The notes under the pieces: model-generated
Databases searched by the model: none
Told to the model about the DNA's origin: nothing
Seen by the model: only the letters and a program-made list of their open reading frames with translations
Part shown: one piece after another, positions 6,903 to 9,656 of the stretch
Numbering within the stretch: the first letter of the stretch is position 1
Layout of the letters: every line of letters starts with the position of its first letter
NCBI GenBank assembly: GCA_903928615.1
Contig: CAIYRJ010000005.1
Location: forward strand, 1-12,073
Length of the DNA stretch: 12,073 bases
Reading direction: 5' to 3'
Origin: an uncultured Actinomycetes bacterium
Lineage (GTDB): Bacteria > Actinomycetota > Thermoleophilia > Miltoncostaeales > Miltoncostaeaceae
Position numbers and translations under genes: made by a program

Positions 6903-9656
6903 ATGGCTACTCACGCACCATCTCCCGCACACGCTCCCGGTGGAGGCCACGGAGGCCACGCCCACCACGAGGACCCGCGCCCGGTCTCGTACTGGTGGAT
7001 CCGCGCCGCCCTCGGCACGGTGGCCGGCGTGCTGTTCGCGTTCCTGCTCGTGTTCCTGCTGCGGGCGCTGTTCGGGTTCGAGCCGCTCTATGACGGCGGG
7101 GTGTATGGCGGCGTCGCCGGCCTGATCGGCGCCATCGGGTTCCTGTGGGGCATCGGCTGCTTCGACTTCTGGCTCGGCTGGGCCAAGGGCGCGGACATCT
7201 CGGAGGAGGACCACTCCTTCCACGGCGTGAGCAACTGGAAGCAGTACTTCCGGTTCAACACCGACCACAAGGTCATCGGCATCCAGTACCTGGGCATGAC
7301 GCTGTTCTTCATGCTCTGGGGCGGCCTGATGGCCCTGCTCATCCGCACCGAGCTCGCCGCCCCCGGCCAGCAGATCGCGGACGGGGAGACCTACAACGGC
7401 TTCCTGAGCATGCACGCGACGCTGATGATCTTCGTGTTCGCCGTGCCGGTGTTCGGCGGCATCGCCAACTACGTGTTGCCGATCATGCTGGGCGCCAAGG
7501 ACATGGCGTTCCCCCGCCTCAACGCCCTCTCGTTCTGGTTCCTGCCGGTCGCCGGCTTCATGTTCCTCGCGAGCATGTTCACCGGCATGTTCGGCGCGGC
7601 GTGGACGGCCTACCCGCCGCTGGCCAGCCAGGGCACGATGGGCCAGACGCTCTTCGAGCTCGGCGTGCAGTTCGCGGGAGCCTCATCGATCGCCACGGCG
7701 ATCAACTTCCTGGCGACCATCGTGACCATGCGCGCGCCGGGAATGACCATCTGGCGCATGCCGATCCTCGCGTGGGCCACCGGCGTCACCTCCGTGCTCG
7801 CCGTGTTCGCCACGCCCTTCATCGCCGGCTCGCAGTTCCTGACGATGTTCGACCGCATCATGGGCACGAACTTCTTCGTGCCCGACCAGGGCGGCGACGT
7901 CATCATGTACCAGCATATTTTCTGGTTCTACTCGCACCCGGCCGTGTACATCATGCTCTTGCCGGGCTTCGGGATAATCAGCGAGGTGATCGCGACATTC
8001 GCCCGGAAGCCGCTCTTCGGCTACCGCGCGATGGCGTTCTCGATGGTCGCCATCGCGGTGCTCGGATTCGGCGTGTGGGCGCACCACATGTTCGTGTCCG
8101 GCATGGCGGCCTGGCTGCGCGTGCCCATGATGATCACCACGATCATCATCGCGGTGCCCACCGGCGTGAAGATGTGGTCGTGGCTCGCCACGCTGTGGCA
8201 GGGACGAATCCACATCAAGACGCCCATGTTGTGGGCACTGGGCTTCCTCTTCACCTTCCTGATGGGCGGACTGTCGGGCGTGTTCCTCGGCATCGTGCCC
8301 GCCGACATCCAGATGTCGGACACCTACTTCGTCACCGCCCACCTGCACTACGTGCTCTACGGCGGCAGCGTCTACACGATCTTCGCGGGCCTCTATTACT
8401 GGTTCCCGAAGATGACGGGGAAGATGTACTCCGAACGCCTCGGCCACTGGCACTTCTGGCTGACGTTCATCGGCACCCAGCTCACGTTCTTCCCGATGCA
8501 CTGGCAGGGCCTGCAGGGAATGCCGCGCCGCGTGTCCGACTACGACCCGCGCTTCGAGACGGTGAACTCCATCGAGACCATCGGCTCGTACATGCTCGGC
8601 GTCGCGACGATCGTCTTCTTCTACAACATCATCGTCTCGTGGAAGTCGGGCCCGAAGGCGCCGTGGAACCCCTGGCGCGGCAAGACCCTCGAGTGGATGG
8701 TGTCCTCGCCGCCGCCGCTGTTCAACTTCGACGCCGTGCCCCAGGTGGTCGGCGGCCCGTACCAGTACGGCATCCCGGACGCGCGCCACGCCGTGGTGTT
8801 CGCGCCCGAGGAGTTCGGCGGTGAGCTGAAGGAGGACACCCGCTACCCGGTGCTGGTGGTGGCCAACGAAACGCTCACCTCGCAGACGCTCATCGACGAG
8901 ATCCGGGCGCGAAACGCCGACGGCCTCTGGTCGTTCCAGCTCGTCGTGCCCGTGGGCGATGGTGATCGCTCGGTCGCCGAGCGGCGACTCGCCACCACGC
9001 TGGCGATCCTCGCCGAGTCGGGCGTGTCGGCGACCGGCCGCGTGGCCGACGGCGACGTGGTCTCCGTGGCCACCGAGGCCGCCAAGGAGATCCAGCCGAA
9101 CGAGCTGGTGATCGCCACCCTGCCGCTCGCCGAGAGCCAGTGGATGCGCACCGACTCGGTGGACAAGGTGCGCAAGGCCACCGGCGTGGCGCTGAGCCAC
9201 GTGGTGGTCCCGGCGAACGACGCCCGCGCCCTGGCCGGCACCTCGGCCCTGCCGCTGGTGATGGTGGTGGCCACCGAGGCAATCGGCGCCGAGGCGCTTG
9301 CCACGGTGGTGCGCACCCGCGCCGACGCCGAGCCCGCCCGATTCACCGTGGTGGCTCCGCTCGACCTGCCCGACCCCCGCTGGGGCGCCGAGGCCAACGA
9401 GCGCCGCCGCGCCGCCGGCGAGGCCATGACGGCCACGATCAACGCGCTGGTGAACACCGGCGTGGCCGTGGAGGGCGAGGTCATGGACGACGCCCCCTCG
9501 GTGGCGCTGCCCCTGGCAATCGATGCCTACAAGCCGTCGCGCATCATCGTCGCGGGCATCAACGGCGAGACCGCGGGCCTGCGCGAAGCCGCAGAGGCCG
9601 CCGCCGGCGACACCCCGGTGGAGGCCGTGAACCTCGGCGCGGCGGCGGGGGCCTAG
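6903..9656 (+). CDS. coxA: Cytochrome c oxidase subunit I, A2-type, with extra N-terminal helices and C-terminal tandem Usp-like domain
   Basis: 917-residue catalytic subunit that reduces oxygen and pumps protons; typical family members have 520-660 residues. Order: His-rich tail (1-26), two extra helices (about 30-57 and 66-92), the twelve-helix COX1 core (about 118-610), then a soluble tail (640-917). Core ligands are all present: low-spin heme H171 and H482, high-spin heme H480, and CuB ligands H345, H394 and H395, with Y349 as the cross-linked tyrosine. The D-channel entry residues N189, D200 and N207 and the K-channel K423 are kept. The channel glutamate of HPEVY is replaced: the motif reads Y343-SHPAVY349, the mark of A2-type enzymes such as Rhodothermus and Thermus caa3. 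The frame is continuous and the codon bias unbroken through the tail, so the fusion looks genuine. No strong ribosome binding site precedes ATG at 6903. Confidence 0.96.
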   Translation: MATHAPSPAHAPGGGHGGHAHHEDPRPVSYWWIRAALGTVAGVLFAFLLVFLLRALFGFEPLYDGGVYGGVAGLIGAIGFLWGIGCFDFWLGWAKGADISEEDHSFHGVSNWKQYFRFNTDHKVIGIQYLGMTLFFMLWGGLMALLIRTELAAPGQQIADGETYNGFLSMHATLMIFVFAVPVFGGIANYVLPIMLGAKDMAFPRLNALSFWFLPVAGFMFLASMFTGMFGAAWTAYPPLASQGTMGQTLFELGVQFAGASSIATAINFLATIVTMRAPGMTIWRMPILAWATGVTSVLAVFATPFIAGSQFLTMFDRIMGTNFFVPDQGGDVIMYQHIFWFYSHPAVYIMLLPGFGIISEVIATFARKPLFGYRAMAFSMVAIAVLGFGVWAHHMFVSGMAAWLRVPMMITTIIIAVPTGVKMWSWLATLWQGRIHIKTPMLWALGFLFTFLMGGLSGVFLGIVPADIQMSDTYFVTAHLHYVLYGGSVYTIFAGLYYWFPKMTGKMYSERLGHWHFWLTFIGTQLTFFPMHWQGLQGMPRRVSDYDPRFETVNSIETIGSYMLGVATIVFFYNIIVSWKSGPKAPWNPWRGKTLEWMVSSPPPLFNFDAVPQVVGGPYQYGIPDARHAVVFAPEEFGGELKEDTRYPVLVVANETLTSQTLIDEIRARNADGLWSFQLVVPVGDGDRSVAERRLATTLAILAESGVSATGRVADGDVVSVATEAAKEIQPNELVIATLPLAESQWMRTDSVDKVRKATGVALSHVVVPANDARALAGTSALPLVMVVATEAIGAEALATVVRTRADAEPARFTVVAPLDLPDPRWGAEANERRRAAGEAMTATINALVNTGVAVEGEVMDDAPSVALPLAIDAYKPSRIIVAGINGETAGLREAAEAAAGDTPVEAVNLGAAAGA
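8838..9635 (+). other. C-terminal tandem Usp-like alpha/beta domains of CoxA
   Basis: Residues 646-911 form two similar units. Unit A (about 648-769) runs YPVLVVANETL, an acidic helix, SFQLVVPV, helix AERRLATTLAILAESGV, NELVIATLPLAESQWMR, and ends ALSHVVVP. Unit B (about 782-911) repeats the plan: LPLVMVVATEA, RFTVVAPL, helix AGEAMTATINALVNTGV, SRIIVAGING, and ends PVEAVNLG. This alternating strand-helix pattern resembles universal stress protein folds. Unit A's phrase ELVIATLP..xSQWMR recalls stand-alone Usp-like proteins of actinobacteria, from memory. The classical G-2x-G-9x-G(S/T) ATP motif is not visible in either unit, so nucleotide binding cannot be claimed. Because COX1 ends in the cytoplasm, the domain should face the cytoplasm. 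Confidence 0.75.

Follow-up and report, generated by a model that had tools for sequence, protein, structure and literature searches.

The stretch of DNA analyzed here (hereafter the window; 12,073 nucleotides of contig CAIYRJ010000005.1 from an uncultured Actinomycetes bacterium) carries genes for a terminal oxidase in the order coxB, coxA, and coxC. The coxA open reading frame is free of stops over its 917 codons, and its product is much longer than the COX1 core it contains. The features of the locus, all on the forward strand, are as follows:

5892 to 6875, +: coxB, caa3-type subunit II with a C-terminal cytochrome c domain (curated model)
6903 to 9656, +: coxA, catalytic subunit I with a Usp-like tail (open reading frame; in frame across the genomes of the family)
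6903 to 7253, +: N-terminal extension of CoxA, residues 1–117, with hydrophobic stretches at about 35–53 and 71–89 (common to other CoxA proteins of the class)
7254 to 8747, +: COX1 core, residues 118–615, with HPAVY (345–349), HH (394–395), and AHLHY (479–483) (TIGR02891 and motifs)
8748 to 8843, +: linker, residues 616–647, with the strongest conservation in the whole extension at residues 616–642 (dN/dS 0.024)
8844 to 9206, +: Usp-like unit 1, residues 648–768 (predicted structure, fold comparison)
9135 to 9176, +: conserved site of unit 1, residues 745–758 (SQWMRTDSVDKVRK), with W747, D751, D754, R757, and K758 invariant in 40/40 fused proteins
9255 to 9632, +: Usp-like unit 2, residues 785–910, without the SxW site (predicted structure, fold comparison)
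9660 to 10280, +: coxC, subunit III, starting 3 nt past the coxA stop (open reading frame, curated model)

The CoxA protein passes the cut-offs of both subunit I models, TIGR02891 (678.7 bits, cut-off 670.75; residues 118–615) and Pfam COX1 (PF00115; 512.2 bits, cut-off 34.8; residues 125–563). All of the metal-ligand motifs were found by motif, i.e., HATLMIF at residue 171, HPAVY at 345, HH at 394, and AHLHY at 479; we take these to supply the heme and CuB histidine ligands and the cross-linked His-Tyr pair. The active site reads YSHPAVY, with YSHP at 343 and hence YS in front of HPxVY. YSHPxVY instead of HPEVY identifies an A2-type oxidase, which places the window CoxA in the A2 type. Moreover, the gene order indicates that the oxidase is of the caa3 kind, because coxA sits between coxC and a coxB with a fused cytochrome c domain. 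The genome of the window also holds a second, partial COX1 match, which covers profile positions 2–146 only (G000:C111:9682-10146; L002).

The N-terminal extension matched no Pfam family above the cut-off, and a 15-sequence profile of it found no solved relative in the PDB, where the one match is at chance level (E 0.26). This extension may represent a fused small oxidase subunit.

Fold and kinship of the C-terminal tail

Past the core, CoxA extends by 302 residues, which comprise the linker of about 32 residues and two units. Compared directly within the window protein, units 1 and 2 match at 27% over 102 residues (E 1e-4, single comparison), while as 24-sequence profiles they align with an hhalign probability of 100 (E 8.5e-46). 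The predicted model of the tail likewise contains two successive alpha/beta units with five strands each. The uninterrupted frame, the profile alignment, and the predicted model together bear out the claim of an earlier sequence-only reading that CoxA runs in frame into two similar alpha/beta units.

That reading also described the tail as a tandem Usp-like domain. As regards the fold this description stands: the tail is predicted to adopt a tandem Usp-type fold, the outcome on which the reading had been made to depend, and its profile is homologous to the Usp-like domain of the TT0030 (2IEL) type (E 4.8e-15). As regards Usp proper it does not, since the window tail has no match to Pfam Usp (PF00582) up to an E-value of 1 and carries no Usp ATP motif. 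Seven of 24 tail relatives match Pfam Usp (best E 1.5e-4); lower E-values among the same 24 were obtained for NTP_transf_3 (two members, best 1.1e-6) and Exog_C (six members, best 3.5e-5). The single unit of a second fused family (f11; see below) scores 17.5 bits against Pfam Usp, below the cut-off of 24.

In ATP-binding Usp proteins, strand 4 is followed by the motif G-2X-G-9X-G(S/T). At this place the motif is present in none of the 24 aligned sequences (alignment A1); the pattern occurs in 2 of the 24, both times in unit 2 before its second helix. PMC2864759 quotes a form of the motif and mentions some Usp proteins that lack it. Membership of the tail in the canonical ATP-binding Usp proteins is ruled out by the missing Pfam match together with the missing motif, and a link to stress signals or ATP can therefore not be transferred from Usp. 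Control of proton pumping or oxygen use by the tail, which the earlier reading also suggested, is a hypothesis.

The topology of COX1 puts its C terminus on the cytoplasmic side. The C terminus of the tail would on this basis be cytoplasmic as well, and the topology supports the earlier placement of both the COX1 end and the tail in the cytoplasm.

A conserved site in unit 1

In place of the ATP motif, strand 1 of the family sequence is followed by ANET and strand 4 by STxPxxxSxW(L/M), the latter reading ATLPLAESQWM in the window. The conserved residues are A654, N655, and T657 just past strand 1 and T739, P741, S745, and W747 at or past strand 4. In alignment A1, 12 residues of unit 1 are at least 96% conserved, and five of them (A654, N655, T739, S745, and W747) sit at the tips of these two strands. 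As an argument for a ligand pocket this pattern is suggestive only, because the other seven (L651, L663, P683, A692, R695, G712, and H766) are found elsewhere in the unit and because N655 and T657 are less than 95% conserved across the 40 fused proteins.

The SxW element is present in unit 1 of 13/13 fused proteins and in unit 2 of 0/13. It occurs in 18/19 and 19/19 units of the separate protein encoded in other families, in 4/4 f11 units, and in 5/5 membrane-linked units tried (both discussed below). Unit 2 of the window's family has lost the SxW site and probably serves as a packing partner.

The fusion in the window's family

The genome sample consisted of 200 genomes of Thermoleophilia, 35 of them in the family of the window (f1, taken as Miltoncostaeaceae). 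The tail is in frame with CoxA in all 33 f1 genomes in which CoxA was found; in 31 a single frame covers the full CoxA, and in two (G122 and G035) the frame is kept on a contig fragment. In the remaining 2/35 (G023 and G032) CoxA was below the detection cut-off, and G023 has the tail at a contig start. On the 4163-base contig of G035 (L147, G035:C154), the core and unit 1 share a frame and unit 2 lies in another. The extension is 301–310 residues long in 17/17 f1 loci. A protein search with the tail returned 56 relatives at E ≤ 1e-3 among 8000 scored, all with a COX1 domain, and Miltoncostaea marina (P0054) is among the fused proteins. Alignment A2 contains 42 of these 56 proteins, the query included, and conservation among fused proteins was counted over 40 rows after P0034 and P0056 had been dropped. 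Both look chimeric or frame-shifted: the N-terminal half of P0034 differs, and P0056 loses the frame in unit 2.

Selection was estimated from 16 of 20 genomes of the genus, using pairs with dS < 1.5, which left 118 pairs for the linker and 120 for the other parts. Median dN/dS is lowest in the linker (0.024), followed by the core (0.104), unit 2 (0.274), and unit 1 (0.313). The tail is under purifying selection, and by dN/dS it evolves roughly three times as fast as the core. Moreover, the fused linker is unlike the C terminus of split CoxA.

These data bear on whether the fusion could be an artefact, i.e., a separate gene that seems merged with coxA because a sequencing or assembly error removed the stop codon. 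Such an error is made conceivable by related families, which carry a separate gene at the same place. However, the unbroken frame in 33/33 f1 genomes with CoxA, M. marina among them, the very low dN/dS of the linker, and the departure of that linker from the split C terminus rule out a lost stop codon or assembly error, and we consider the chance of an artefact negligible. The survey of related coxA genes shows the separate gene to be the state of different lineages rather than the product of a stop lost by error.

The split form and its distribution in Thermoleophilia

Outside f1 and f11, CoxA stops 29 to 59 residues past the core in 42/42 loci read (two identical pairs), and six outgroup oxidases stop 21 to 114 residues past it. 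Behind the split coxA lies a separate gene of about 266–291 codons with the same two units, which begins between 4 bases before and 28 bases after the coxA stop in the 12 loci with a clear start. This gene is located between coxA and coxC in 10/10 module-bearing split loci read (L111–L115, L118, L120, and L137–L139), and the named species Solirubrobacter taibaiensis and Svornostia abyssi have the split-gene form.

The module adjoins coxA in 67 of the 93 genomes outside f1 for which a strong long-type CoxA was listed, including four fused f11 genomes; the module matches used were of the tandem or f11 kind. The separate tandem gene adjoins coxA in at least 63 of the 89 genomes outside f1 and f11, a lower bound in that G120, counted as having no module, has one cut by a contig end. 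Genomes with a tandem module and no long CoxA listed (G192, G182, G147, G202, G053, G065, and G142) were left out of the count. Module-to-coxA distances from −1200 to 400 bases were accepted, a range chosen because the search reads through stops. By family, the module is beside coxA in 27/35 genomes of f3, 14/16 of f5, 17/20 of f7, and 5/5 of f9, and in 0/9 of f8, 0/3 of f10, and 0/1 of f12.

No module was found between coxA and coxC in 11 loci read (L117, L128–L134, L136, L145, and L146; four from f8, two from f10, one from f12, two from f7, and two from f3). These loci have the same long CoxA, and the module is therefore dispensable for the enzyme. In G164 (L146), only the first residues of the module gene (VLVVANETAAG) follow the coxA stop, before coxC, with no module found there; this short stretch is perhaps the remnant of a lost module.

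Other fusions and fusion history

In the second fused family, f11, CoxA is fused to one unit in 4/4 loci (L103, L104, L105, and L106), with an extension of 189–193 residues. The f11 unit keeps SGWLRRDL or SGWMRRDL, and the fusion contains a start-like MKHILVVAN or LKHILVVAN stretch. The same Usp-like domain is also encoded by an extra gene behind coxC in f3-like loci (L111, L112, L118, and L136) and by a gene about 3.3 kb beyond coxC in the f5 locus L115. The domain follows one or two hydrophobic stretches in all 12 loci translated; these include L040 and L031 but not L136, and two of them come from the same genome. Genes of this membrane-linked kind, with a hydrophobic stretch and a Usp-like domain, include the following and similar ones:

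L030, 5690 to 6385
L045, 9113 to 9781
L118, 6295 to 7080
L115, 1815 to 2612

In the COX1 tree, f1 and f11 form two distinct clades close to the base of the module-bearing group, but the forks are weak (85/75 and 93/73), and a single f1 + f11 clade is not rejected by the AU test (p 0.153). This tree requires two changes, a number reached equally by two fusions and by a single ancestral fusion that was later split. L043 and L045, in which coxA lies in two frames, were kept out of the tree, while their separate tail genes stayed in A1; L030 and L111 are identical in the tree, as are L040 and L146. The linkers and the unit numbers differ between f1 and f11. The single-unit tree is built on few columns, and its deep forks are weak. 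Whether f1 and f11 go back to one common fusion event is not decided by these sequences.

The domain is also found away from the oxidase. The separate tandem protein has 4853 relatives at E ≤ 1e-10 among 8000 scored, mostly hypothetical or nameless among the 120 matches listed. Other Actinobacteria commonly have single-unit relatives. Of about 180 genomes outside Thermoleophilia, 23 match at E ≤ 1e-25, each through single units among the matches listed. Near single-unit relatives, no match to the CoxA, CoxB, CoxC, or CtaB of the window was found in 15/15 loci read (13 from the 23 matching genomes outside the class and two from f1), and the domain is therefore not part of an oxidase by nature. 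Within the sample examined, the oxidase link seems to have arisen in Thermoleophilia, because the outside relatives listed are single units and the 13 loci of theirs that were read have no oxidase protein of the window's kinds nearby. Two f1 genomes (L159:3980-4849 and L160:3836-4603) have another copy of the domain with an extra C-terminal part, and no match to the window oxidase was found there.

Possible functions of the tail

The genomic evidence points to a module that works with the oxidase, because the fusion of neighboring genes, the recurrent neighborhood, and the membrane-linked copy at the same locus agree. Our best explanation, to which we give just under an even chance, is that the tail serves a caa3-type terminal oxidase as an accessory module on the cytoplasmic side, with a unit 1 that may bind a ligand and adjust the enzyme. 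Many other Thermoleophilia encode the module as a stand-alone tandem Usp-like protein immediately behind coxA; in f1 the tandem module would have become part of CoxA, and in f11 a single unit. Usp proteins often dimerise, and pseudo-dimer packing is usual for Usp folds; the two units probably pack as a pseudo-dimer, which would lie below the proton-uptake side of the enzyme. In Usp proteins, nucleotides are held after strand 4. The conserved site at this position in unit 1 has a different sequence and may accommodate a small anionic ligand that is not ATP; this ligand may adjust oxidase activity, proton uptake, or the docking of a partner. The data show the fusion, the predicted fold, the conserved neighborhood, the selection, and the asymmetry of the site between the units, and the place of the tail on the enzyme, its ligand, and its regulatory role are inferred. 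We infer regulation through a ligand because there is a conserved site and because other membrane proteins have Usp-fold domains, e.g., KdpD. Only tentatively do we propose that this proton-pumping oxidase has a built-in cytoplasmic sensor, in which unit 1 would bind a small non-ATP anionic metabolite or second messenger at a new Usp-type site and tune O2 reduction or proton uptake from within the catalytic chain. Coupled to this proposal, and held just as tentatively, is an origin in Thermoleophilia as a separate subunit, followed by as many as three fusions to membrane proteins encoded at the oxidase locus.

A purely structural role is a strong rival because of the faster evolution of the tail, the site-less unit 2, the scattered conserved residues, and the module-free families. 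Here the tail would stabilise the enzyme or form a supercomplex and hold no ligand, and the fusion would fix one copy per enzyme; we regard this as a serious possibility, if a minority one. The threefold higher dN/dS of the tail relative to the core, if it reflects weaker constraint, would suit a scaffold or a function in assembly. The lack of a conserved site in unit 2 of 13/13 fused proteins, the absence of the Usp ATP motif, the spread of conserved unit 1 residues over the fold, and the families in which the same CoxA has no module beside its gene all fit this role. Against it stands W-x3-D-x2-D-x2-R-K, which is invariant in 40/40 fused proteins, adjoins the usual ligand edge of the fold, and seemingly exceeds what packing needs. 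The tail might also act as a docking platform that recruits a soluble cytoplasmic partner to the oxidase, either a signalling protein or an energy-metabolism enzyme. The tendency of Usp proteins to dimerise is compatible with docking, and the module could pair with the membrane-linked copy that f3-like loci encode behind coxC; no gene for a partner is known, however, and we consider docking unlikely.

Oxidase regulation is usually described as gene expression or as a choice among oxidases, and little is known of cytoplasmic ligands that control bacterial terminal oxidases directly. COX1, the Usp fold, and gene fusion are each known; we found no paper on their combination, an oxidase-Usp fusion, in the open-licence literature searched. 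The fusion suggests that this respiratory enzyme carries its own partner, which may sense the state of the cell. With a soluble alpha/beta module joined covalently to subunit I, and a split form in named species, it offers a system for testing ligand control. It further suggests a site at which the tandem, oxidase-linked proteins of a large family may act; most of the listed members of that family are labelled hypothetical or are nameless.

Comparison with known systems

TT0030 of Thermus thermophilus (PDB 2IEL), a hypothetical protein, is a single unit unfused to an oxidase, whereas the tail is tandem and fused. No functional work on TT0030 was found in the open-licence literature searched; TTHA0030, taken as the same gene, appears in a table of predicted regulator sites that forms part of PMC7662524. 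The tandem Usp proteins TTHA0350 (3AB7/3AB8) and UspE (5CB0) superpose poorly on the tail as whole pairs (rmsd 16.8 for 5cb0). Moreover, TTHA0350 was solved with ATP, while the window tail has neither the ATP motif nor a Pfam Usp match. The fold list for the tail includes Usp folds of membrane proteins, i.e., KdpD with c-di-AMP (7JI4) and the cytosolic domains of KCC/NCC. The KdpD domain, however, belongs to a sensor kinase and not to a respiratory enzyme, and its likeness to the tail is one of fold, with no sequence kinship shown.

On the oxidase side, the best solved relatives of the core are the subunit 1 chains of 7RH6 and 6ADQ (E 1.2e-146 and 1.3e-146), which we take to be the mycobacterial supercomplex; both matches end at residue 615 and leave the tail unmatched. 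Polypeptide I+III of T. thermophilus (2YEV, presumably its caa3 oxidase; phmmer E 7.7e-142, residues 119–611) is likewise a subunit I fused to a neighbor. In that case, however, the match to CoxA ends at residue 611, and the fusion partner is the membrane subunit III rather than a soluble domain.
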